64,000 nt of DNA from Malus domestica (taxonomy: Eukaryota > Streptophyta > Magnoliopsida > Rosales > Rosaceae), in contig NC_091670.1 in the NCBI RefSeq assembly GCF_042453785.1, positions 2,418,001-2,482,000 on the forward strand. Direction: 5' to 3'. Under the pieces are notes generated by a model that was not told the origin of the DNA, ran no database searches, and saw only the letters and a list, made by a program, of their open reading frames with translations. Both the position numbers and the translations under genes were made by a program. Positions 10,265 to 61,744 of this stretch are shown piece by piece; within the stretch, counting starts at the first letter, position 1, and every line of letters begins with the position of its first letter.

Positions 10265-11547
10265 TTATGGCCACAAACTTACATGAATCAACTTCATGAA
10301 ATCTAATTTCTGATGATCAATAGAATTCAATTGTTATGTATGTGATATCGGCAGGGTTGGATCAACCGGAGCTTGAATTTTTCGTTAAGATCGAACATAA
10401 CTGATTTTTCTGATTTGCAGTGCCCTTTTATTAATGGCAGAACTGATTCTATTGTCTAAACCCCTTTGTCTAAAGTATTGTAATGAGCAGCCACGGGTAC
10501 GACACTATCTTCAAGTGGTGATAATCTTTACCACCTTATTTAGCCATTTTGGAGAAAAAGTATTTGAAAATTAAAAAAAAAAAACAAATAAAGGATGAGG
10601 TGAAATTGGCCAGCTCAATAATTTTCTTCCCTTTTTTTGAAGCGCATTCCGGAAACTTACTAAAAATTTGGGTAAATTTATAGACAAGAAACAGTAATGC
10701 AACTTGGCACAAATAGCAGGATTTCAAAACCAAAAGCTGAATTACTCACTACAATCCAATGTCTTCAGGATTTTAGCAATTAATTATGTCACTAAATTAA
10801 TTGAGCTATTTCCACGGAGGCTCTACGAATTATAAATTAATCGGACATTGTACAATTACAAAAGGAGCCACCATGCGCCTCAGATAGTGTTATTTGAGAT
10901 AGAATCTATTATACTTTGATTGGTGAAGACAATGAAATAACGGAATATGTGAATTGAAAATGAATTGAACATATGACTCATTATCTCTTAGTTCAAGAAG
11001 AGACCTGAAAACCTTAGTGACCCATGTACCACCTTACAACCGTAGAAAAGAAAAACAATCGTACGGGACAAAGACAATACACAATTCTAGATATTTCAGT
11101 AATCAAAACATAAGTTTCTGTGCAAGAGGTAACCTTTTATAGTCCTTTTGAATCATGTGCCCTGCTTCAGTTCCCTTACCAAACTGGATAAAAGTCTTAT
11201 CCAAGGCAATCCCTCCTAATCCTGTGTTACAAACGGGTCCAAAATACTCCATCCAAGTTCTGCCCATCACCCAAACAAGCAGGCCCAGTTCTTGTGCGAC
11301 ATAGCTAACTTTTTACTTGGGACCTAAAATTGGGTTTCAGTCGATCAGTCAAATGGGGCAATTTTCCCTATCAAGTCGCTCCGTCTCCCAGTCCCTCTCT
11401 CTCATTTATTCGACTGGTTGAAGCTTTCAAGTATCAAGATTGGCAGAAGCATCCGCAGAAATCCAGATGGGAAGAAAATCCTGGTACTACTCTATCACTG
11501 CTTCTCTACAATTTTCCCGGAAAGTTTCTGCATTTGGGTTTACAGCA
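10265..11547 (+). other. Duplicated LecRK upstream region (copy B)
   Basis: This sequence is collinear with 27370-28655 in front of the intact LecRK-C, so it is the 5' flank of LecRK-B. Differences are scattered substitutions and small indels. It should hold the promoter, but no box can be singled out with confidence. Confidence 0.6.
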
Positions 11548-13480
11548 ATGCATTCATCTCGTCCATTTCTCTTCTGTGTCCTTTTCTTTTTCGTCTCCAA
11601 CCTCAGTTTCCCTTCGCTTTCTGTCCCGTTCTTGCCTGCGACGAACAATAACCTCACCCTCTTAGGCGACGCTTCCATCACCAACAACGCCATTAGTCTC
11701 ACTAAAGAACTCACCACATGCCCCTCCTCTTTCCCTTCTGCTTCTTCTGGCGTTGGAAGAGCATTTTACGCCTACCCAATTCGGTTTCTTGACTTGAAAA
11801 CCAACGCCACTGCCTCTTTCTTGTGCCGATTCTCTTTCTCAATCACTCCAAGTTCCCAATTGTGTTCTTCTGGAGATGGCATTGCGTTTGTGATCACCCC
11901 CGATGTTGATTCTCTGGGATCATCCAGAGGTGGAGTATATGGGACTTCTGGAGCCATCCTCAGTGTCAAAAGAATAGTTCTTCGCCATGGAATTCGATCC
12001 TAGGTTTGATCCTATGGTTGGTGACACCAATGGTAACCACATTGGTATTTATGTGAACACGGTTGTGTCTGTTGACTGTGTTGATGTTGTGTCAAGAGGA
12101 TTTGATTTGACAAGTGGGAGGGAGATTACTCCTTGGATTGAGTACAGAGATGCTGTCAAGCTGATTCGGGTTTGGGTTGGATACTCTTGAACTAGGCCTC
12201 CAACGTCTCTGCTTAATGCTCCGATTGACCTCTTCAACCAGTTCATGGGTGTCGGTTTCTCTGCCTCGAATGGGCAGGGCTCTTCAATTCATATTGTTGA
12301 TAGGTGGAGATTCAAGACTTTCAGGTCTCTTCCACCTGGGATTCTTACAGATACCTTTGAGGAAGGGGACTGCTTCATGTGCTCGTCACCAGAAGATTCA
12401 AGTACCAAAAGCAGCCCTGAAAATCGCTGCCATGAAAGGAAAACAAAGACAGTGGAGATGGCTCTTGGGTTGGGAGGTTTAGCTACATATGTTGTCTCCA
12501 TACTCACGTTTGTTTTTGTCATTTGTTTTGTGTGTGTGAAGAAGAGAAGGGTCGCATCAGCTAAGGTTTGTAAAGGGTCTTTGCCCTCTGAGGGAGAAGT
12601 GGCAGTGAAAAGGTTTGAGAGGGCTGATGGGATCGGTAGTCTGCGTAATCCTTTCACCACGGAGTTTGCAACTATGGTGGGTTGTTTGCGGCAGAAGAAT
12701 TTGATTCAGCTTCATGGGTGGTGTTGTGAGGGTAATGCGTTAGTCCTGGTGTACGAATACATTGCCCAACGGAAGTCTCAACAAAGTTCTCCACAAAAGC
12801 TTCAATTCAGCAGTTGTCCTATCCTGGAAGCAAAGACTTGATATAGTTCTCGCAGTCGCTTCTGCTCTTGCATATCTTCACGAGGAGTGTGAGAGGCAAA
12901 TAATTCAGAGATGTTAAAACTTGCAACATAATGCTCAATGCAGATTTTAACTCCAAACTAGGGGATTTTGGTCTAGCAGAAGTGTATTGATCACAGTTCC
13001 ATCATTGCAAGAGAAGCAACTATACCAGCTGGAACAATGGGATATCTTGCTCCAGAAGACGTTTATTCAGGTGTTCCAACAGTTAAAACTGATGTTTACA
13101 ACTTTGGTGTGGTGGTGTTAGAGGTGGCAACGGGAAGAAAGCCGGTGGAGGATGATGGAACAGTGGTTGCTGATTGGGTTTGGAGCATGTGGGAAAATGG
13201 AAAACTGATTGAAGTTGCTGATCTGAGGTATATGGGGAAGTTTGATATGGAAGAAATGGAGAGGATGCTAATGACTGTACTTGCTTTTGTGCACCCAAAC
13301 CATGTGAAGAGGGCAACGGTGAAGGAAGCTGCAAGGATTCTTAAAGGCAAAACCCCTCTTCCTCTGCTGCCACCAAGAAAACCAAGGGTAAGCCTTCGCC
13401 CCGTTTTTCCTGATGACTGAAGAAATCACATTTTGCTGTGGTGTTTGGCCAAGTCTCGAACTTGATGATGTACAATATAC
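11548..13480 (+). pseudogene. LecRK-B: broken L-type lectin receptor kinase
   Basis: It is a close paralogue of LecRK-C starting at the same ATG (MHSSRPFLF signal peptide). Lesions compared with LecRK-C: a one-base insertion near 11935 in the lectin domain; a TGA at 12187-12189; loss of 129 bp (43 codons, in frame, matching 29670-29798 of LecRK-C) that removes the juxtamembrane region and glycine-rich ATP loop near 12558; a frame change near 12770; loss of two bases in the HRD catalytic-loop region near 12908; and a deletion of roughly 0.8 kb after 13480 removing the native C terminus. The kinase tail 13037-13420 remains open. No functional kinase is expected. Confidence 0.9.
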
Positions 13481-27369: not shown

Positions 27370-28655
27370 CTTTTCCACCCACTTGAATCAACTTCATGAA
27401 ATCTAATTTTTGACGATCACTAGAATTCAATTGTTATGTATGTGATATCGGCAGGGTTAGATCAAACAGAGCTTTACTTTTTCGCTAAGATCAAATAGAA
27501 TTGATTTTTTTCTGATTTGCAATGCCCTTTTATTAATGGCAGAACTGATTCTATTGTTGAAACTCCTTTGGCTAAAGTGTTGTAATGAGCAGCCACAGAT
27601 ACGACACTATCTTCAAGTGATGATGATCTTTACCACCTTATTTAGTCATTCTGGAGAAAATGTATTCGAAAAAAATAAAAAACAAATAAAGGATGAGGTG
27701 AAATGGCCAGCTTAATAATTTTCTTCCCTTTTTTTTGAAGCGCATCTGGGAAACCTATTGAAAATTTGGGTAAATTTACAAACAAGAAACACTAATGCAA
27801 CTTGGCACAAATAGCAGTATTTCAAAACAAAAGCGGAATTTCTCACTACAATTGAATGTCTTCAGAGTTTTAGCAATTAATTAGGTCACTAAATTAATTG
27901 AGCTATTTTCACTGAGTTTCTATGAATTATAAATTAATCGGATCACTATAAAATTACAAAATGAGCCACCGTGCCCCTCAGATAGTGTTATTTGAGATAG
28001 AATCTATTATACTTTGATTCGTGAAGACAACAAAATGACGAAATGACGGAATGTGTGAATTGAAAATGAATTGAACACATAACTCATTATCTCTTAGTTC
28101 AAGAAGAGACATGAAAACCTTACAACCGTAGAGAAGAAAAATAATCGTACGGGACAAAGACAATACACAATTATAGATATTTCAGTAATCAATTCAAAAC
28201 ATAAATCTCATTCTACTTACAGTCCTTTTGAATCATGTGCCCTGCTTCAGTTGCCTTACCAAACAGGATAAAAGTCTTATCCAAGGCAATCCCTCCTAAT
28301 CCTGTGTAACAAACGGGTCCAAAATACTCCATCCAAGTTCTACCCACCACACAAACAAGCAGGCCCAGTTCTTGTGCGACATAGCAAACTCTTAACTTGG
28401 GACCTAAAATTGGGTTTTCGTCGATCAATCAAATGGAGCGATTTTCCCTCTCATATCGCTCCGTCTCCCAGTCCCTCTCTCTCATTCATTCGACTGGTTG
28501 AAGCTTTCAAGTATCAAGATTGGCAGAAGCATCCGCAGAAATCCAGAGGGGAAGACAATCCTGGTACTACTTTATCACTGTTTCTCTGTAATTTTCCCGA
28601 GAAAGTTTACGCCTTTCATTTTCCCGAGAAAGTTTCTGCATTTGGGTTTACAGCA
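27370..28655 (+). promoter_or_regulatory. LecRK-C upstream region
   Basis: Collinear with 10265-11547. The reading frame of LecRK-C stays open upstream for 94 codons to an ATG at 28374, but that extension is not signal-peptide-like and contains a repeated AAAGTTT/CCCGAGAA stretch, so I treat it as 5' UTR and promoter. Confidence 0.45.
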
Positions 28656-30758
28656 ATGCATTCATCTCGTCCATTTCTCTTCTGGGTCCTTTTCTTTTTC
28701 GTCTCCAACCTCAGTTTCCCTTCGCTTTCTGTCCCGTTCTTGCCTGCGACGAACAATAACCTCACCCTCTTCGGCGACGCTTCCATCACCAACAACGCGA
28801 TTAGTCTCACTCAAGAACTCACCACCTGCCCCTCCTCTTCCCCTTCTGCTTCTTCTGGGGTTGGAAGAGCATTTTACGCCTACCCAATTCGGTTTCTTGA
28901 CTCGAAAACCAACGCCACTGCCTCTTTCTTGTGCCGATTCTCTTTCTCAATCACCCCAAGTTCCCCATTGTGTTCTTCTGGAGATGGCATTGCGTTTGTG
29001 ATCATCCCCGATGTCGATTCTCTGGGATCATCCAGAGGGGGGTATATGGGACTTCCGGAGCCATCCTCAGTGTCGAAAGAATCGTTCTTCGCTGTGGAAT
29101 TCGATACTAGGTTTGATCCTATGGTTGGTGACATCAATGGGAACCACATTGGTGTTGATTTGAACACAGTTGTGTCTGTTGCCTGTGTTGATGTTGTTTC
29201 AAGAGGGATTGATTTGACAAGTGGGAGGGAGATTACTGCTTGGATTGAGTACAGGGATGCTGTCAAGATGATTCGGGTTTGGGTCGGATACTCGTCAACT
29301 AGGCCTCCAACGCCTGTTCTTGTTGCTCAGATTGACCTCTCCAACCAGTTCAAGGAGTTCATGCATGTCGGTTTCTCGGCCTCGAATGGGCAGGGCTCTT
29401 CAGTTCACGTTGTTGACAGGTGGAGATTCAAGACTTTCGGGTCTCTTCCACCTGGGAATCCTACAGATACCTTTGAAGAAGGGGACTGCTTCATGTGCTC
29501 TTCACCAGAAGATTCAAGTACCAAAAGCAGCCCGGAAAATCGTTCCCATGAAAGAAAAACAAAGATTGTGGAGATGGCTCTTGGGTTGGGAGGGTTAGCT
29601 GCATTTGTTGTCTCCATAATCGCATTTGTTTTTGTCATTTGTTTTGTGTGTGTGAAGAAGAGAATGGTCACTGCCAGAGGGAGCAGAGAGGGCAAAACTT
29701 GTAGAGTTGAGGCGAATAAAGTTCCGACGAGTTTGTCTCTTGCAGAGATAAGATCGGCGACAATGGGGTTTAACCGACACAGGGTTGTCGGGGAAGGGGC
29801 ATCAGCTAAGGTTTATAAAGGGTCTCTGTCCTCTGGTGGAGAAGTGGCAGTGAAAAGGTTTGAGAGGGTTGATGGGATCGGTAGTCTGCGTAATCCTTTT
29901 ACTACGGAGTTTGCAACTATGGTGGGTTGTTTGCGGCACAAGAATCTGATCCAGCTTCATGGGTGGTGCTGTGAGGGTAATGAGTTGGTCCTGGTGTACG
30001 AGTACATGCCCAACGGAAGCCTCAACAAAGTTCTTCACAAAAGCTTCAATTCAGCAGTTGTTCTGTCCTGGAAGCAAAGACTTAATATAGTTCTTGGAGT
30101 CGCTTCTGCTCTTGCATATCTTCACGAGGAGTGTGAGAGGCAAATAATTCACAGAGATGTCAAAACTTGCAACATAATGCTCGATGCAGATTTTAACGCC
30201 AAACTAGGGGATTTTGGTCTAGCAGAAGTGTATGAGCATAGTTCAATCATTGCAAGAGAAGCAACTATACCAGCTGGTACAATGGGATATCTTGCTCCGG
30301 AATACGTTTATTCAGGTGTTCCAACTGTTAAAACTGATGTTTACAGCTTTGGTGTGGTGGTGTTAGAGGTGGCAACGGGAAGAAAGCCGGTGGAGGATGA
30401 TGGAACAGTGGTTGTTGATTGGGTTTGGAGCATGTGGGAAAAGGGGAAACTGATTGAAGCTGCTGATCTGAGGTTGATGGGGAACTTTGATATGGTAGAG
30501 ATGGAGAGGATGCTGATGACTGGACTTGCTTGTGTGCACCCAAACCATGTGAAGAGGCCAACGGTGAAGGAAGCTGCAAGGATTCTTAAAGGCGAAACGC
30601 CTCTTCCTCTGCTGCCACCAAGAAAACCAAGGGTAAGCCTTCGCCCTGTTTATCCTGATGAATGTGAAGAAATCCCGCTTTGTGGTGGTGTTCGGCCAAG
30701 TCTTGAACTTGATGATGTACAATATTTGACTCCGAAGAGCCACTTTGGCAAGGATTAG
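28656..30758 (+). CDS. LecRK-C: intact L-type lectin receptor-like kinase
   Basis: A single-exon 700-aa protein. A signal peptide (MHSSRPFLFWVLFFF, about residues 1-24) is followed by a legume-lectin ectodomain (about 28-275, with FCxSSGDGIAF-type and AVEFDTRFDP core motifs), a transmembrane segment (about 308-330, then VKKR stop-transfer), and a Ser/Thr kinase: glycine loop GEGASAKV about 377, HRDVKTCN about 497, DFGLAE about 518, LAPEY about 548. It is an RD-type kinase with all key motifs. The family acts at the plasma membrane and several members bind extracellular nucleotides or act in immunity; the ligand here is unknown. The ATG at 28656 was chosen over in-frame 28374 because it begins the signal peptide and is conserved in LecRK-B. 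The end [17 protein letters not shown] resembles the LecRK-S type, not certain. It faces TNL-C. Confidence 0.9.
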   Translation: MHSSRPFLFWVLFFFVSNLSFPSLSVPFLPATNNNLTLFGDASITNNAISLTQELTTCPSSSPSASSGVGRAFYAYPIRFLDSKTNATASFLCRFSFSITPSSPLCSSGDGIAFVIIPDVDSLGSSRGGYMGLPEPSSVSKESFFAVEFDTRFDPMVGDINGNHIGVDLNTVVSVACVDVVSRGIDLTSGREITAWIEYRDAVKMIRVWVGYSSTRPPTPVLVAQIDLSNQFKEFMHVGFSASNGQGSSVHVVDRWRFKTFGSLPPGNPTDTFEEGDCFMCSSPEDSSTKSSPENRSHERKTKIVEMALGLGGLAAFVVSIIAFVFVICFVCVKKRMVTARGSREGKTCRVEANKVPTSLSLAEIRSATMGFNRHRVVGEGASAKVYKGSLSSGGEVAVKRFERVDGIGSLRNPFTTEFATMVGCLRHKNLIQLHGWCCEGNELVLVYEYMPNGSLNKVLHKSFNSAVVLSWKQRLNIVLGVASALAYLHEECERQIIHRDVKTCNIMLDADFNAKLGDFGLAEVYEHSSIIAREATIPAGTMGYLAPEYVYSGVPTVKTDVYSFGVVVLEVATGRKPVEDDGTVVVDWVWSMWEKGKLIEAADLRLMGNFDMVEMERMLMTGLACVHPNHVKRPTVKEAARILKGETPLPLLPPRKPRVSLRPVYPDECEEIPLCGGVRPSLELDDVQYLTPKSHFGKD

Positions 30759-47711: not shown

Positions 47712-50700
47712 TCAACAAATTTTACAAACGCCAATCAAGTCTAAGCAGTGCTTAAACTTGTGCAACGAAACTGGCTTCGTTAACATATCCGCAGGATTGT
47801 CAGCGGTCCCAATCTTCTGAAGAAGAATATCTCCCTCGTCAATAACCTCACGAACAAAATGGAACCTCACGTCAATGTGTTTCGTACGTGCATGATGAAC
47901 TTGATTCTTTGCTAAATGTATAGCACTCTGACTGTCGCAATAAACATCCACATGGTCTTGTTGAACCCCTAAGTCATCAAGCAACCCTTGAAGCCAGATG
48001 GCTTCCTTTATAGCTTCTGTCACAGCCATGTATTCTGCCTCAGTAGTCGACAAAGCAACTGTAGATTGCAGAATCGACCTCCAACTTACTGGACCTCCAG
48101 CAATAGAGAATACAAAACCAGTAGTGGACCTACGCTTGTCCAAATCACCTGCGTAATCAGAATCCACATATCCAACAACACATTTACCAGTAACTTTATC
48201 CTGCTGGAACAATAAACCAACATCCACAGTACCCAGAATATACCGTAGAATCCATTTCACAGCTTGCCAATGCCCTTTTCCTGGATTATGCATATATCTA
48301 CTGACAATGCTAACAGCTTGTGAAATATCAGGCCTAGTACACACCATAGCATACATCAAACTACCAACAACATTTGCATAAGGAATTTGAGCCATGTACT
48401 GACTCTCTTTAACAGTTTTAGGAGACATAGAAGCGCTAAGTTTGAAATGAGAGGCAAGAGGTGTACTAACCGGTTTTGAATTTTCATTCATCCTGAAACG
48501 TTGTAGTACCTTCTTCAAATACTGCTTCTGACACAGACTAATCTTGCCCTTCGCTCTATCTCTTTCAATTTCCATACCTAGTATCTTCCGAGCTTCTCCC
48601 AAGTCCTTCATCTCAAATTCATTACTTAGTTGAGTCTTCAACCTTGTAATCTCCACTTTGCTCTTACATGCTATAAGCATATCATCAACATATAAAAGCA
48701 GATAAATGAAGGTTCCATCTTGTAGTTTGCGAAAGTATACACAATGGTCATAGTGACTTCTTGTGTACTTCTGCCCGATCATAAATCTATCAAATCGCTT
48801 GTACCATTGTCTTGGAGACTGCTTCAAGCCATACAATGATTTTTCCAATTTGCAAACCCAATTTTCCTTTCCAGCAACCTTAAAACCTTCTGGCTGAGAC
48901 ATATAAATCTCTTCCTCCAAATCACCATGTAAGAACGCAGTCTTGACATCAAGTTGGGCCAACTCAAGGTCAAACTGCACAACTAAAGCCAACAGAATAC
49001 GAATAGAAGAATGTTTTACTACAGGAGAAAATACCTCATTGTAGTCAATGCCTTCCTTCTGAGCATAGCCTTTAGCTACCAATCTGGCTTTGAATCTTAC
49101 ATTGTCTTTTCCCAAAGATTCCATCTTTTTGGCATACACCCATTTACAACCAATTGCTTTCTTCCCCTTTGGTAACTGAACCAGCTTCCAAGTCTCATTT
49201 TTATGAAGAGATTTCATCTCCTCATCCATAGATTTCTTCCACAACTCGCACTCTGAACTCATGACAGCTTCTTTGTAGGCGGATGGAATATCATCTTCAA
49301 TAACGGGAAGTGCATATGCCACAATATCAGTAAATCGAGCAGGCTTTCGGATTTCCCTTCTCGATCTTCTGGTTGCAATATAGTCTTGTTGCTGTGGAGG
49401 CTCTTGGGTAGGTGCCTCCTCTTCATCATCCTCGTCCTCATCATCAGAATTAACTGTAGGACTAGTGATTGAAACATCAGACCTTACTGGAACAACTGGA
49501 GTCTTCAGTAACTCCACCTGCTTTGAGCTCCTCATGGTTTTGGTCGCTTCAGTTTCACCTTCATGCTTGTTCTGATTAACCATAGCAGCCTCATCAAAAG
49601 TCACATCTCTGCTTACAACAAATTTCTTCTCATCTGGACACCAGAGTCGGTATCCCTTCACGCCAATGCTAAAGCCCATAAATAGAGCTTTCTTTGCTCT
49701 TGGATCCAACTTGCTTTCTCTGACATGATAGTAAGCAGAACAACCAAATATGTGTAAAAACTTGTAATCAGTACAAGGTTTACTAGACCATACCTCCATG
49801 GGCGTTTTGCCCTCATTCGCAGCAGCTGGCAATCGATTAATGAGATGGCTTGCATAAGTGAGTGCCTCAGCCCAAAACGCCTTGCCTAATCCAGCATTAG
49901 ACAACATACACCGAACTTTCTCAAGCAAAGTACGGTTCATGCGCTCCGCCACCCCATTCTGTTGCGGTGTCTCCCTAACCGTGAAGTGCCTCACAATACC
50001 CTCATCTTGACAAACTTTCAAGAAAGGATCAGACTTATATTCACCCCCATTGTCTGATCTGAGAGTCTTGATCTTTCGACCGCTTTGCGTTTCAATCATC
50101 TTTTTCCACTTCAGGAATATCTTCAAGACTTCATCTTTACGCTTCATGGTGTACACCCATATTCTTCTAGAGAAGTCATCAACAAAGGAGACAAAATAAT
50201 GGCTACCTCCCCAAGATGCATTCTTGGAAGGTCCCCAAACATCAGTGTGAACATAATCAAGAATGCCCTTAGTGTGGTGAATAGCAGTGCCAAATTTTAC
50301 TCTAGTTTGCTTACCCAACACACAATGCTCACAGAATTCCAATTTGCATGCCTTTGCACCTTTCAATAAGCCTTGCTTCACCAATCCTTGCAACGCTTTT
50401 TCACCAGCATGCCCAAGACGCATATGCCATAACCTCGTGGTGTCTGTGCTATCTGCGTCAGCAGCTTCGGTGACAGCTGCTCCACCAATAACTGTATTCC
50501 CCTGCAAGAAATACAAGTTATTTCGTCTTGTACCTTTCATCACCACCAGTGCCCCGTACACAGCTTTAAGAACTCCACCCTCCATGGTGATCTTGAGACC
50601 CTTGGATTCCAATGCACCCAGTGAGATAAGATTTTTCTTCATATCCGGTACATACCGAACATCACTTAATTCTCTGACTGTTCCATCATGCATCTTCAAA

Positions 50701-51749
50701 CAGATTTTGCCTATCCCTTGTGTTTTGCAGGCATTATTATTACCCATCAAAACAACTCCACCATCCAGCTCCTCGAAATTAGAAAACCATTCCCGAATGG
50801 GACACATATGATAGGTGCAACCTGAATCCAAAATCCACTCATTGGAGTGACCATCAGCATATGAACTAGCCAAAGCAAACTCGAAATCATCATCTCCAGA
50901 TTTTGCAATATTTGCTTCAGAACCCGCTTTCTCCTTCTCTTTGTTCTTCAATTTGGGGCAGTCTTTCTTCCAATGACCCTTTTGGCGACAAAAAGCACAT
51001 TCATCTTTAGCAGGAAACTTCCCTCGTGACTTTGAACGAGATTTTCCCCGCTTCCCAGATTTTCTTTCCTCTGTTCGACCCCTTGCAACAAATGCCTCGG
51101 TTTGTGAATTGTGAGTCTTCAATTCCTTCTTACGACACTCATGATTCACCAATGCCGCAGACACCTCATCAAGTTTCACCTCGGATTTTCCATACAACAG
51201 AGTAGTTGTCAAATGATCATAATCATCAGGCAATGAATTTAACAAACATAGTGCCTTGTCCTCGTCAGGAATTTTCACATCAAGGTTTGCTAAATCAGCA
51301 AGTATTTTATTATAATCATTGAGGTGTTCGTGCATAGAGATACCTGGACGATACTGAAATCGGAAGAGTCGCTTCTTCAAGAAGAGACGATTTTCTGCGC
51401 TCTTGGTCATATACTTCTCCTCCAATTTCGTCCATAACTCCTTAGCAGAAGTTTCCTTCATATACGGGTATTTCAACTCCTTATCAAGGAACGATCGAAT
51501 AGCAGCACAAGCATGAAGATTAATTCGCGTCCACTGCTTGTCATCAATATCTTCTGGTTTATCTTCCAGAACCATATCCAACTCTTGTTGATACAACACA
51601 TCCATAACTTCACATTGCCACATACCAAAATTATTAGAGCCATTGAATTTATCAACCTCTAACCTTGTAGTAGTGGTTGGATGTCTATTGGATGAAGACG
51701 AAGACGATGCTGACTCCTTCCTTACAGATTCATCTTTATCTCCAGCCAT
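47712..51749 (-). CDS. Copia gag-pol polyprotein, 1,345 aa
   Basis: One open frame without stops. Gag/UBN2-type region about residues 30-210; CCHC zinc knuckle [14 protein letters not shown] at 251-264; aspartic protease motif LDSG at 307-310; GAG-pre-integrase LWHMRLGH; integrase core with D, D and E contexts [16 protein letters not shown] and [13 protein letters not shown]; reverse transcriptase with LLLYVDDM; RNase H near the C terminus with [23 protein letters not shown] and ADMLTK. Full length for the family, with all catalytic signatures visible. It acts in cytoplasmic virus-like particles and integration in the nucleus. Expression would start in the 5' LTR at 51878-52417. Confidence 0.95.
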
Positions 51750-53116: not shown

Positions 53117-55335
53117 CTACAAGTCAATGGGGAAAGCTCCTGTGGTTCGAATATGATCAAGAGTCCTCCTTAGACCATGCTTGAGCACTGCTTGATTACC
53201 TGCCCTGAATCCTTGCCCGTAAATTGTTGTATTTGTCTCAATTGAATATTTAAAAAATTCACCAAGCTTCTTCCCTTCATTAGACATTGTCGAACTAGAC
53301 CCCGAAGACGTCTCAGAGTCCAGCCACGTATGGGCCAACACTTGGTAGATACCATATCCAACCTCTGGGCTCAGATTCCGATAACCATTCAGCCTTAGCC
53401 ATGCGTGCATCATCAATGCAGCCAGAATTGACCCTGAGAGCAACCTAGGAAGGCCATACAGCATCCGAATTGATGTTATTCTACTGTGTCCCTTCAGCAT
53501 CCTTAGAATACTAGTAACGATAGGTTCTGCCGAGAAAACTGCTCTAGTCTCTGGCAGGTAGTGATGACCGAGCCTTTCTACCTTGGTGTCCTTATTTAGT
53601 GTTCGTCTCCCAACCAAGATTACTGGGATTTGCTGCTCAAATTTCATATCTAAATCTTCAAAGAAAGCTTGTACTTGAAGAAAAAGGGAATTGCACTTGT
53701 GATCATCCATAATTTCCGAGTCATTACACTCCGAGCATTGCTTCCGACCATCAGGAAGTAAAAAATATTTGGTCGCCCATGGCTCCATTCTTTCACAGCT
53801 ATAACACCTAGGAGTTCCATCGCGCTCGTGAGAGGGGCAGTATTTTTGTAGCCAGAAAGGATGTTGCCTATACTCAATAAGACCGTCTGATTTTCTAATA
53901 GGGATAAGAGTCTTGCAAACATCGCAGTTTGGAAAGTGCTGCGCCTTATAGCACGATACGTGGTAAGGGCTATCTTCGGAAACAGAAAACTCATGATCAG
54001 TAATTGGAAGTTTACAAGTGATGCAAACAAAACATTCAGGATGCCAAAAAGCTCCGATGCATTCTAAATACCGCCCACGCTCAATATTCCTGTTGCAGCC
54101 AGCACATACCCTGAATCCATCATTATTGACACATGGTGGACGAGAATCCAAGTTCAAACTTTCTGGAAGACCCTCCGCAAACTCATCATATAGTTCATGG
54201 TCATGCTCCTCTAACAGACGTTCATCCCTTGTTGTAACGATGATTCTGCTACCCAGACCAAACCAGTTTTTATTTCCAGCCACTCTTGCTAGTTGGCCTA
54301 ACTGATCCACACCATCAAGAACGAGAAGAACCTTTTTATTATTAAAACATTTCTTTGTCATTACGGTACCAGCATAATCGTCCACAACTTGTGTATTGGT
54401 TTTCAGAACAGAGGAAAGAAGCTGACTTTGCAGATGAATGAGACCATATGTTGCAGAAACCTTTCCCACATCAGCAAGAAAACAACTTACTTCAAAATAA
54501 TGGGAAAATTCGTCATAAAATTGTCTAGCAGTGAACGTCTTACCTATCCCAGCTTCCCCAAATATGCCTATAAAACGAACATCATTTGCTTCTAGATCCA
54601 AAAGAAAATGTAATTTTTTCGGTCTAAAATCAATTCCCGCCATCTTCTTTGCAGAACCTAACAATTTGAAAGTGGGATGCACTCTGTTACTTACTATTTT
54701 GACAATCTGGTTGATGAGCTCAGTCTCATAACTGCAACACAAAAAATGAAGTAATCGTCAAACACTCGCTTTTTTTGATAATATGAATATCATAAATAAT
54801 TTATGTACAACAAATTTCCATTCGTTTATTCGTACCTATAGTCATCTGACTTCATCCCTGCTATTACGCTCACTTTCTCTAAAGCACGTCTCCATTCTTG
54901 CAACTTTCTCATGTCCTCGCTAAAGTTTCTTTCATGCTCGTCAAAGGCCGCTTCGAAAGTTCCTTTTTGCTCTCGAACAAGGGAGGGCTCTACACCATAT
55001 AATATTGGAATGATTGCATTCCTTACTTCCACGCATTTAAGTATATGTACAAGTTCATCCAAGCACCAAGTAGAAGAAGCATAGTTTGGTGACAGAACAA
55101 TGATGGCAAACTGTGATTCTTCGACAGCAGTCGAGAGAGTTGAAGAAATATTGGTGCCTCTTTCAATTCCCGAATTGTCCCTGAAAGTCCTAATTGCTTG
55201 GCGCACCAGATTGTTGTACAAATGATCTGTGAAAGTCTTGCGGGTGTCTTTACCCCTAAAACTCAAGAACACATCATACTTCCATCGAGGAGGTGCAGGA
55301 TCAGATACGGAGGCTCGTTCCTTGCTCAAATCCAT
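53117..55335 (-). CDS. TIR-NB-LIM-DA1 fusion protein, no LRR
   Basis: Two exons (TIR 54836-55335; rest 53117-54731) join in frame to 704 aa. TIR about 17-160: YDVFLSFRGKDTRKTF, SSTWCLDEL. Partial NB: P-loop GEAGIGKT 225-232, kinase-2 LLVLDGVD 302-309 (second Asp of the usual LDD is Gly), RNBS-B SRIIVTTR 328-335. About 10 residues later it becomes the LIM-DA1 module with no GLPL, ARC2, MHD or LRR. LIM ligands are present (CAGC at 376-379, WHPEC, CITC), then the LIM-like CDVC/CPSH/CYSC region and the DA1 peptidase domain. The expected HEMMH reads ALMMH (605-609) and the following EEG reads GYG, so the Zn-peptidase should be inactive; a short internal segment upstream is also missing. Arabidopsis CHS3/DAR4 joins TIR-NB-LRR to LIM-DA1; this is a shorter variant. 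Probable decoy or regulator; could also be a decaying gene, though the frame is clean. Confidence 0.85.
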
Positions 55336-57395: not shown

Positions 57396-57949
57396 TCACA
57401 ACTGGAGGCCCATAGCCTTGCAATGAGAGATGATGTTGTCAGCTATAGTTGCTGTTCCATTGAGTTCTTCCACATCTTGCTTGTACACCAAACAAGCCCC
57501 ACATTTCTTTGGCTTCAAGTCTGCTATTAACCTGCGATCTAAATCCTTTGAATAATAAAAGGTATCAAATGAAATCGTAATCTGACCAGGTTTGATAATC
57601 CTTTCCCGAGAAACATAAAGTACCCAAAGGTGATCCGACACAGGATGACGTATTTTAGGACGAGAGTCCCAATGCTGGCAAGAAAAATGTTGCGACGAGC
57701 ATTGAATTCCAAAATGATCACAATACGCATATATATACTCAGGGAGAGGATTGATTTGTCTGCTCCGAGAAAATAGCACACAAAACAATTCCCATCACCC
57801 TGCTACATGAATGTGGGGGTATCTCCACAGTTAGTGAATTTCCCACACTTTGATGACTGAACCACTCAGGAATATAGCTTCCAGGAATTACCGTATGGAA
57901 TTGCTTGACAGATCGAGAAATTCTCTGGACCATAGAAACAATTATATCA

Positions 57950-57992
<43 letters not shown>

Positions 57993-58089
57993 CTGAGGCA
58001 ATCTCCTTAGCACTGAAAATATGATACCGTTACAACCATGATTGTCAACTACTAGACCAGAGCAATTAACAGCACTGAAAGAAAATTCT

Positions 58090-58129
<40 letters not shown>

Positions 58130-59485
58130 AGTACCTGAGGCAATCTCCTTAGCACCGAAAATATGATACTGTTACAACCATGATTGTCAACTACTAGACC
58201 AGAGCAATTAACAGCACTGAAAGAAAATTCTAACAGATTGGCGTAGAGGCCCAACTTTGGTGGTGGAACAGACAGCATGCTTAAGGAAGTAGAATCATCT
58301 GTGAATTCATATAATGTGCTATTTAATGGAAGAACTGACAATTGGCGAAGGCTCTTGCAATTCTCCAAATATAATACTGAAAGCTCAGAAAGCCGTCTAA
58401 TGCTTTCAGGGAGGGTAACAAAATTGTTTCCACTAAGATTTAATTCTTCTAAAGAGGACAAGTAGCCAATATCTTCTGGAACTGCTCCTTCACAAAGATT
58501 CAAGTCTCTCAGATCGAATACCTTCAAAGAACATAAGCCCTTTGAAGAAGTGAACACCGAACAACCCAAAGAGTGGGGAATCCTTCTTTTAAAAATCCCA
58601 AAAGTATACCATGATGCAGGAGATCCAGAAACAGATAACTTTAAAAAAAATTTCAAATGAACAAGTTAAGATGGCAACTCTTTTAATGCAGTTCGACTCA
58701 GATCAAGTTCCTCCAAATAGTCCATCACTCCCAAGCTTTCGGGGAGTTTGCTAAGTTTTGAGCACCCTAACATATTGAGAAGTTTAAGAGACTTGCAATT
58801 AGAAATGACACTTGGAACACACAAGAGACTTTGACAACCATCTAGATGTAGTTCAACAAGGCCAATCAGACATCCAATTGATGGAGGTATTTCCTTAATA
58901 GCAGTCTCACTTAAAATAAGACGTGACAGATTTTTCATGTCTCCAACAAACTCCGGAATCTTTTTCAGATTGACACATCGAGAGAGACTCAGAAATTCAA
59001 GAGACTCCATTGCTATCTCACTTGGGAGACTCTTCATACTCATACAATTCTTAAAGTTCAAAATCTTAAGCCTTTTGAGAGCTGCAATGGATGGGTGGAT
59101 CTCAATTAAATCATAACAACCTTCAAGTACTAACCTCTCAAGATTCTGAATTTCTGTGAAATATGGGGTCCTGATTAATTTTGAGAAACTAAGATCCATA
59201 TGTTTCAAGTTGGACAAGCGCTGCAGAATAATAGCAAGTGGTGATTAGATTAAAAACCCTTGATTTATAAAAAAAGGTTGTAAAAATGCAAACATAAATA
59301 CGTCTAAATACATACTCCATTATTGTACCTTTCTTCCATTCCAAAGTTGAACAATTTCACAAGTAGGCAAACTAAGTACGGTAAGAGAGTCCAGTTCAAA
59401 ACTTAGTGGTAGAGATTTGGATGGATAATATCTCCACTCCAGAAATCTTAAAGAATTAGGAAGAACTTCAGAGCCAGGAGAAAGG
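57396..59485 (-). pseudogene. TNL-D: 3' half of a TIR-NB-LRR gene
   Basis: Remaining exons, leftward: end of pre-LRR 59329-59485, LRR about 58135-59220, C-JID 57396-57924 (PGSYIPEWFSHQS). The TIR and NB exons are absent: a LINE starts at 59486. The LRR exon carries an in-frame TAA at 58666-58668, and the C-JID exon changes frame near 57780. The 3' end of the LRR exon and the adjoining GA repeat are duplicated in tandem (57993-58094 and 58135-58236), giving two copies of the splice donor. It is more diverged from TNL-A/B/C than those are from each other. Not functional as a receptor. Confidence 0.85.
57955..58134. repeat. Duplicated exon end with two (GA)n tracts
   Basis: GA tracts at 57955-57990 and 58093-58131 separate two copies of about 102 bp that differ at two or three bases. 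The tract sits immediately after the LRR-exon donor, as it does in TNL-A, -B and -C. Confidence 0.85.
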
Positions 59486-60141
59486 AACAACAAACAAACA
59501 AACAAACAACAACAAAGCCTTTTCCCACTAAGTGGGGTCGGCTATATGAATCCTAGAACGCCATTGCGCTCGGTTTTGTGTCATGTCATCCGTTAGATCC
59601 AAGTACTCTAAGTCTTTTCTTAGAGTCTCTTCCAAAGTTTTCCTAGGTCTTCCTCTACCCCTTCGGCCCTGAACCTCTGTCCCGTAGTCACATCTTCGAA
59701 CCGGAGTGTCAGTCGGCCTTCTTTGCACATGTCCAAATCACCGGAGCCGATTTTCTCTCATCTTTCCTACAATTTCGGCTACTCCTACTTTACCTCGGAT
59801 ATCCTCATTCCCAATCTTATCCTTTCTCGTGTGCCCACACATCCCACGAAGCATCCTCATCTCCGCTACACCCATTTTGTGTACGTGTTGATGCTTCACC
59901 GCCCAACATTCTGTGCCATACAACATCGCTGGCCTTATTGCCATCCTATAAAATTTTCCCTTGAGCTTCAGTGGCCTACGACGGTCACACAACACGCCGG
60001 ATGCGCTCTTACACTTCATCCATCCAGCTCGTATTCTATGGTTGAGATTTCCATCTAATTCTCCGTTCTCTTGCAAGATAGATCCTAGGTAGCGAAAACG
60101 GTCGCTTTTTGTGATCTTCGCTAGATTGCTCCGGTCATTAG
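59486..60141 (-). mobile_element. LINE 3' fragment (end of ORF2)
   Basis: A minus-strand frame (broken near 59735) encodes the C-terminal part of a plant LINE-type reverse transcriptase: SDRFRYLGSILQENGELD, AIRPAMLYGTECWAVKH, RMLRGMCGHTRKDKIGNEDI, then GRGRPRKTLEETLRKDL. The 3' end is the CCCACTAAGTGGGGTCGGC stretch (plus strand) and a (GTTT)n/(GTT)n tail. The 5' part is cut at 60141 by an LTR element. It interrupts TNL-D. Confidence 0.85.
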
Positions 60142-61744
60142 TGTGGATAAGTATATAAATGGATAGAGATAGGAAAGCAAACACAAGATGTACGTGGTTC
60201 ACCCAGATTGGCTACGTCCACGGAATAGAAGAGTTCTCATTAATTGTGAAGGGTTTACACAAGTACATAGGTTCAAGCTCTCCTTTAGTGAGTACAAGTG
60301 AATGATTTAGTACAAATGACATTAGGAAATATTGTGGGAGAATGATCTCGTAATCACGAAACTTCTAAGTATCGGAGTGTGGTGTCGTCTTGACTTGCCT
60401 TATCTGTCTCATAGGTAGATGTGGCATCTTCTCTGGAAGTACTTTTCCTCCATCCAGGGGTGGTATCTTTAACTGGTGGAGATGCACAAGGTAATGTATC
60501 AATTTCACTTGAAGCTTACTTGTAGTTTCAGGCTTGGTCAAGCGCGATACAAACCATGTAGTAGGAGTCCCCCAAGTCGCCGAGCTAGGGGGTCTGCTGA
60601 AAGAGGTGACAGACAAGGTAAGCAATCAGAGCTCCGACTGATTGTTCACCTTCTCCCCATCTTGCAACAGCATGAAGGATAAAGAGAAGAAAAATGAGAA
60701 GAGATGATATGAGATACTTTTGCTTTTGAAGAAGTAACTTTCCACAGGCTTATTCTTGAACTGAGCTGGAGGGTTTTCTGGTTTCCTCCAGAGTATAAGG
60801 CCGACTGAAGAATTTGAGGGTCAAAACAAGTCCATCAAATCTAGAGTACGTTCCACCCTGCTGATATGGGATACTTTTGCTTTTGACAGAGTAATGGATG
60901 TATCGACACGTGTGTTGTTACGCTTGTCTCCACATGCTTCCTTGTATCCTTCGCACTTGCCCTATCTGTTCCTCAAGCAGATGCGGAATCTTCCTTGGAA
61001 ACATAAGATGTTGAAGATGAGTACTCGAGAGCAATGCCAGGTAAGTAATCAGGTAAGGGGTTCCAGGCAGTCAGTTCCTGGCTGGAAGCTTGATTCCAAG
61101 TGCTGACTGATTGCTCTCTTTCTCCTTGTCTTGCAGGTAAAAACAAGGCCAAAGGAAAAGATAGGGAAAAAGCATGATATGGGATACTCTTGCTTTTAAC
61201 CCTGATGATATGAGATATTCTTGCTCTAGTATAGCTTGTTTGCAGAGGTATTATCGGGGGGAAAGAAAGCTGAATATTTCGAAAGGCTTCGTTGGGAGTG
61301 CCCTCTCAGATATGATGAAGGGTTGAGCATTTTTGCAGGTCTGCCTGTCCGTTGGGGATGGAGGTTGACATATATAGGCGTCTCCCTAACAACAAGTAGT
61401 AATGCTATTCCTTTACCCTGCTTGGTCATAGCACGGTAGTGGGAGCTGTCAGTTTCACATGTTTTAACTCTGTCAGAGCACTTTGAAAAAGTGGTCTGTG
61501 GTATCTGGCTCTCGAGATTCGGAGAACGATGCCTCTTCGATTTTTGAGAAAGCAATCATGCTGGGGGTCTGGCTCTCGAGATTCGGAGGGCGGTGCCTCT
61601 TCGATTTTGGAGCAAGCAATCTTGTTGGGAGTGTTGTCTCGAATTTGAGTAAAGGTTGGGCATGTTTGCTAGTCTACCTTGCCACGAAGCACAAAGGTTG
61701 ACACACAGGGACTTTCCAATTATCCAGCAATGGTACTGTTCCTT

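Follow-up and report, generated by a model that had tools for sequence, protein, structure and literature searches.

A TIR-NB gene of apple fused to a DAR1-like LIM-DA1 module that lacks the peptidase motif: a candidate integrated decoy

The gene at 55335-53117 on the minus strand of the apple (Malus domestica) stretch analysed here (the window, 64,000 nucleotides) encodes, in two exons, a 704-aa protein in which a TIR domain and a partial NB-ARC domain are followed by a LIM domain and a DA1-like domain that has lost its peptidase motif. Because the active site is lost and the reading frame is open, the product probably acts as a sensor or decoy and not as an enzyme. The best reading, drawn from sequence, is a TN-type sensor displaying a peptidase-dead mimic of DAR1, a variant of the CHS3/DAR4 idea; we put the probability of this reading, and that of a sensor or decoy role, at about 0.5. 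Such a gene would work like an integrated-domain NLR and would stand outside the active DA1 peptidases. A gene in which the enzyme motif is gone, with the frame and the LIM module kept, offers a direct test of whether the domains integrated in plant receptors have to retain, or to give up, the activity of the protein from which they were copied. An origin from an intronless DAR1-like copy would add retroposition to the possible routes by which receptors gain domains, and DA1/DAR1, which act in organ-size control, would become a possible pathogen target in apple.

Exon 1 (55335-54836) contains the start codon together with the bulk of the TIR domain, with the glutamate of CLDEL kept, and is joined across a GT-AG intron (54835-54732) to exon 2 (54731-53117), which holds the end of the TIR domain, the NB part, the NB/DA1 junction, the LIM and DA1-like domains and the stop codon. 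Splicing yields the clean, two-exon 704-aa frame plus stop that the preliminary description had proposed, and a Malus domestica protein from public databases (P0001), which sits in a 90% cluster of 10 sequences on 6 contigs, is 100% identical to the translation. Pfam places TIR at residues 19-189, NB-ARC at 214-348, LIM at 376-430 and DA1-like at 527-696, the last two both over the cut-off and in the order that is a feature of the DA1/DAR family. The NB-ARC match (54592-54188) contains the P-loop GEAGIGKT, VLDGVD and TTRD and covers profile positions 14-148 of 248 only; since the NB part ends after TTRD, it is followed by neither ARC subdomains nor an LRR, and Pfam detected no ARC1/ARC2 or LRR between NB and LIM in the 704-aa frame. 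WCLDEL, whose glutamate we take to be the TIR catalytic Glu, and the P-loop lie in one frame without an LRR, as in TN proteins, and its domain content makes the product an immune protein of the TN type, with a TIR and a truncated NB. The truncation of the NB-ARC domain, a 54-nt in-frame deletion and the intronless state of the LIM-DA1 part go beyond what the preliminary description had mentioned.

Between the NB part and the LIM domain (54106-53942) lies a junction (54202-54113) in which a weak alignment places, within the linker, a sequence, DEFAEGLPESLN, that may be left over from the last UIM-like stretch; measured against what we take to be the UIM consensus, this stretch is damaged. The N-terminal ubiquitin-interacting motifs were not found in the window gene by tblastn with residues 1-175 of P0026, which matched weakly and at residues 134-175 only (31% identity, E 0.67). 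The DA1-like domain itself spans 53653-53144. An AlphaFold2 model of the LIM-DA1 module is weak overall (pLDDT 63, pTM 0.48), with segment 159-221 unsure and the C-terminal helices confident, and the two motif sites sit on helices 211-241 and 249-269 (module numbering); the 20 matches of a PDB sequence search were LIM proteins, with no DA1 structure among them. The surroundings of the motif had been described as conserved, and this stands for the motif helices and the LIM module; it does not extend to the segment before the motif, which is heavily changed, carries the 54-nt in-frame deletion and is modelled with low confidence.

The DA1 motif is given as HEMMHX15EE in the accessible part of Dong et al. 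2017 (PMC5322733). In the window gene, codons 53419-53405 read GCA TTG ATG ATG CAC, so that ALMMH replaces HEMMH, and residues 625-627 (53359-53351) read GGA TAT GGT, so that GYG replaces EEG; comparison of HEMMHX15EE with the resulting ALMMH-X15-GY shows four of the five motif residues to be lost. Codons, Pfam and alignment thus agree with the preliminary description, both in the two replacements and in the fusion of a TIR-NB protein to a LIM-DA1 module with a destroyed motif, and the module is very probably peptidase-dead, judging from these residues. HExxH is present in 135 of 138 relatives; it is missing in the window protein and in the Vitis protein P0095, and P0138 is without the segment. 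The 119 of these 138 proteins that passed a filter on LIM start and module length were aligned with further Malus sequences, six of them rebuilt copies and three intronless, giving 128 rows. All five motif residues are kept in 124/124 canonical rows, the exceptions being the window gene, its paralogue L010, Vitis P0095 and a pseudogene on C12 (L021). Within this one alignment the motif is therefore changed in 3/3 NLR-fused rows versus 0/124 canonical rows, a contrast that involves three fused rows and canonical rows that lean to conserved members because they were collected by similarity to the window module.

The losses are concentrated on the motif in two of the three fused rows. Within module residues 218-264, the window gene has changed 4/5 motif residues versus 2/25 other conserved residues (Fisher p=0.0026) and Vitis P0095 has changed 3/5 versus 1/25 (p=0.009); in L010 the counts are 4/5 and 10/25, which is not motif-focused (p=0.16). 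Three Malus DA1-like loci outside the alignment all keep HEMMH: L019 also keeps EE, and SE replaces EE in L011 (C10:2865420) and L020 (C14:28018763). Since P0126 likewise combines HEMMH with ED, the EE pair varies while HEMMH stays, and it is HExxH loss, not EE variation, that distinguishes the fused copies. L011 and L020 are DA1-like genes for which no NLR fusion was seen in the stretch examined. At the DNA level the change from GCTCATGAGATG to GCTGCATTGATG requires five substitutions, or an insertion, a deletion and one substitution, and HE to AL is accordingly readable as a compensated +1/-1 frameshift plus one substitution. The four lost codons have 8 of their 12 nucleotides substituted, a level that 43 of 200000 randomly drawn conserved-codon sets also reach; we discount this excess because HE to AL may be a single compensated frameshift.

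L010 (L010:2461-502, minus strand), a TIR-NB-LIM-DA1 tandem paralogue 10.5 kb beyond the window, reads KVMMQ, with K, V, Q, Q and E at the five motif positions; the first half of its LIM domain is missing, one stop interrupts the LIM-DA1 part with ~230 open codons after it, and its NB/DA1 junction differs from that of the window gene, beginning at the DAR1-like ESQSED. A third, decayed TIR-LIM copy (L009:6085-5485, minus strand) joins a TIR directly to a LIM remnant with stops, and the same locus carries a second TIR-NB that is part of a normal TNL. P0095, a putative Vitis vinifera gene model of the form NB-LIM-DA1, has two DA1 copies, both with HLMMR (H, L, R, E and G at the motif positions), and its C-terminal copy has lost the stretch ahead of the active site. 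We tentatively suggest, as a generalization clearly less likely to hold than to fail, that LIM-DA1 modules captured by plant NLRs repeatedly become pseudopeptidases, in apple once a DAR1 cDNA had been retroposed into a TNL and, as a separate event, in the NB fusion of Vitis. The receptor would keep the LIM domain as the sensed surface and disarm the peptidase against growth side effects. Searches for additional NLR-LIM-DA1 proteins recovered no CHS3 and, apart from P0001, no new NLR fusion; as 120 of the 1091 matches of a separate similarity search were listed, more such fusions may exist.

A genome profile search returned 37 DA1-like matches, counted exon by exon. Exon rebuilding was attempted for seven canonical Malus copies, to which the labels DAR1, DA1 and DAR2 were assigned by similarity; L015 was left incomplete, and the LIM-DA1 part comprises eight exons in L013, L014, L016, L017 and L018 and seven in L012. 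L012 (C1, DAR2-like) is without the intron that follows the motif exon in five other copies. The LIM-DA1 part of the window gene has none of the seven introns of L013, L014, L016, L017 and L018 and lies inside one exon, with 75% DNA identity to L018. A DNA tree places it in the DAR1 group (100/99), together with the intronless L010 and L021 (95/95), and these three stay together when the motif codons are removed (93/94, not starred). The missing introns and the grouping with DAR1 in the DNA tree suggest that the module is a retroposed DAR1 cDNA which a TNL has captured. A blastn search with the 3' flank of the window gene gave a DAR1 match at the coding end only.

In protein trees the window row sits on a long branch without a settled position. 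Neither Rosaceae DAR1 (p-AU 0.30) nor a DAR2-like position (0.51) is rejected; there is weak rejection of a position next to Malus/Pyrus DAR1 (p-AU 0.036) but none of a position next to the Vitis fusion (p-AU 0.358), so that the two motif losses need not be independent. An origin from Malus L016/L017 was rejected by both DNA (p-AU 0.000944) and protein (p-AU 0.0117), and the DNA data weakly reject a grouping of the window gene with DAR1 to the exclusion of the other intronless copies (p-AU 0.0428). The TIRs of the window gene, L010 and both L009 copies cluster apart from those of four other TNLs (100/100), as do the NBs of the window gene, L010 and L009 (100/100). The simplest history would then be the capture of one DAR1 cDNA by one TNL followed by tandem duplication, and the window copy would later have undergone a deletion spanning the ARC subdomains and the DAR1 linker.

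This history bears on the order of events, since a free DAR1 retrogene could already have been dead when captured. Such an order, which would be compatible with the sensor reading, is suggested by L021 (L021:4542-5408, plus strand, C12), an intronless DAR1-like copy with frameshifts that has no TIR or NB match within about 50 kb around it, is also without the motif and has TAC (Y) at the second glutamate in the DNA alignment, where the window gene has TAT. With only one in-register stop in 285 codons, L021 was probably coding for long. Against this order, the HE codons differ among the three intronless copies (AL in the window gene, KV in L010, QQ in L021), L010 keeps the second E, a pairing of the window gene with L021 is not favoured by the tree (p-AU 0.0435), and L021 could itself be a fragment copied from a fused gene. 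We regard motif loss before fusion as somewhat unlikely.

Selection was assessed with a custom branch codon model on a fixed tree. A dN/dS below 1 over the LIM-DA1 part, put forward earlier as a check, was recovered on the window branch (0.516; p=0.0037 against 1) and again when the other intronless copies were added (0.578, p=0.024; L010 0.607, p=0.024; L021 0.729, p=0.18). The LIM part alone gives 0.443 (p=0.0067 against 1), and the DA1-like peptidase part alone gives 0.624, indistinguishable from 1 (p=0.20), which allows that the peptidase half may simply be decaying. Among columns conserved at 98%, 6/63 are changed before the Pfam boundary (module residue 154) and 25/85 after it (p=0.0039); this contrast between LIM and peptidase depends on the threshold, with p=0.07 at 95% and 0.13 at 90%. 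A boundary at residue 128, picked post hoc after inspection of the data, gives p=6e-7, 2.8e-4 and 0.005 at 98, 95 and 90%. All indels are multiples of three in the window gene (6/6) and in L010 (7/7), compared with 6/11 in L021 (13/13 vs 6/11, p=0.011); given its single in-register stop, L021 is not a clean neutral control. Of 2000 neutral simulations at 0.15 substitutions per site, a fraction of 0.0035 remained free of stops, and of 2000 run at 0.243 none did.

These measurements also bear on the proposal that the window gene is a decaying relic, a broken tandem fusion still open by chance under lowered constraint and with no present function. On the window branch dN/dS exceeds the background of 0.100 fivefold (p=1.6e-14), the peptidase half is indistinguishable from neutral, the tandem copies L010 and L009 are broken, one by a stop in the LIM-DA1 part and the other reduced to a remnant, and the NB-ARC domain is truncated, all of which a relic would explain. 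It would not readily explain a frame free of stops, indels that are all in frame and a dN/dS that lies below 1 both overall and for the LIM part, and a neutral period of only 0.08 substitutions per site introduces a stop in 96% of simulations (0.037 of 3000 runs stop-free). In all likelihood the window gene, as far as its codons tell, was coding-constrained for most of its history; simple decay over most of that time is unlikely, decay is less likely than function, and a relic at present is a rather unlikely account.

The sensor reading would run as follows. A reverse-transcribed DAR1 messenger would have inserted into the NB exon of a TNL, and the captured LIM-DA1 module would have lost its peptidase motif, so that the bait could be displayed without added DA1 activity on growth regulators. 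The LIM domain and the outer module surface would imitate DA1/DAR1; once the mimic is engaged by an effector of a pathogen, or by a change among the inhibitors or partners of DA1, the TIR domains would assemble and signal. TN proteins can work with a full TNL, and signalling might likewise involve a full TNL from this cluster as the partner.

The dead LIM-DA1 module might instead serve a regulator that is no receptor, binding and blocking DA1/DAR1 or their ubiquitin ligases in a dominant-negative manner and tying growth control to TIR signalling. DAR3 is said, after work by Gu and colleagues in 2023, to inhibit DA1 peptidases, and loss of the motif with retention of the LIM module would suit such a role. 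The LIM-like cysteine C274 is required for DA1 ubiquitylation and activity, according to the accessible part of PMC5322733, which points the same way. The TIR-NB part would be superfluous in a regulator of this kind, yet it is kept in frame, and the UIM-like stretch is damaged in the window gene; we consider this role quite improbable.

Arabidopsis CHS3/DAR4, described in the accessible parts of PMC5322733 and PMC11298796 as a TIR-NB-LRR-LIM-DA1 protein and partner of CSA1, had been named as the known relative. The likeness holds for the architecture, with TIR and NB in front and a C-terminal LIM-DA1 module; it fails in that the window gene has no LRR, a truncated NB-ARC, same-strand TNL neighbours with no adjacent head-to-head partner, and an intronless, DAR1-like LIM-DA1 part of apparently retroposed origin. 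An orthologue of CHS3/DAR4 was rejected on this architecture and neighbourhood, and the comparison, in which motif loss is a property of the window gene, covers these two aspects without the DAR4 motif sequence. The window gene also resembles the TN proteins CHS1 and TN2 (TIR-NB without LRR), which work with SOC3 according to the accessible part of PMC7562919, and differs from them in its LIM-DA1 module. Canonical DAR1/DA1 proteins (UIM-LIM-peptidase) share 57% BLASTP identity with it for near members among the matches listed, and 65% with the module over aligned columns; the window gene differs from them in the lost UIM region and motif, the altered segment before the active site and the fused TIR-NB. 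Apple NLR fusions with LIM and with DUF3633 are already known: the accessible part of Sarris et al. 2016 (PMC4759884) lists both for Malus domestica and Prunus persica, as domains without active-site state, origin or selection. A literature search conducted largely below full-text level, with the main CHS3/DAR4 paper outside it, found no dead integrated DA1, no DAR1-like retrocopy origin and no Vitis parallel.

In the window and the first 20 kb beyond its end, TNL-type TIR/NB matches lie on the strand of the window gene, one 19-residue plus-strand match (E 0.006) having been set aside. No head-to-head CSA1-like partner adjoins the window gene in the window or the 40 kb beyond its end, where plus-strand TNLs occur only at C10:2508448 and 2519340 (L025:6448, L026:7340), some 14 and 25 kb past the L010 fusion. 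Upstream of the window gene a TNL is apparently split into a TIR-NB part (L009:2851-1100, minus strand) and an LRR and C-terminal part (window 57396-59244, minus strand), and between the two lies non-LTR reverse-transcriptase-like sequence (59738-60211 and L009; labelled by eye). Downstream, an open 1345-aa frame at 47712-51749 (minus strand), Ty1/copia polyprotein-like by eye, lies 1.4 kb from the 3' end of the window gene. Two long plus-strand frames at 11422-13417 and 28272-30755 within the TNL cluster appear, again by eye, lectin receptor kinase-like.
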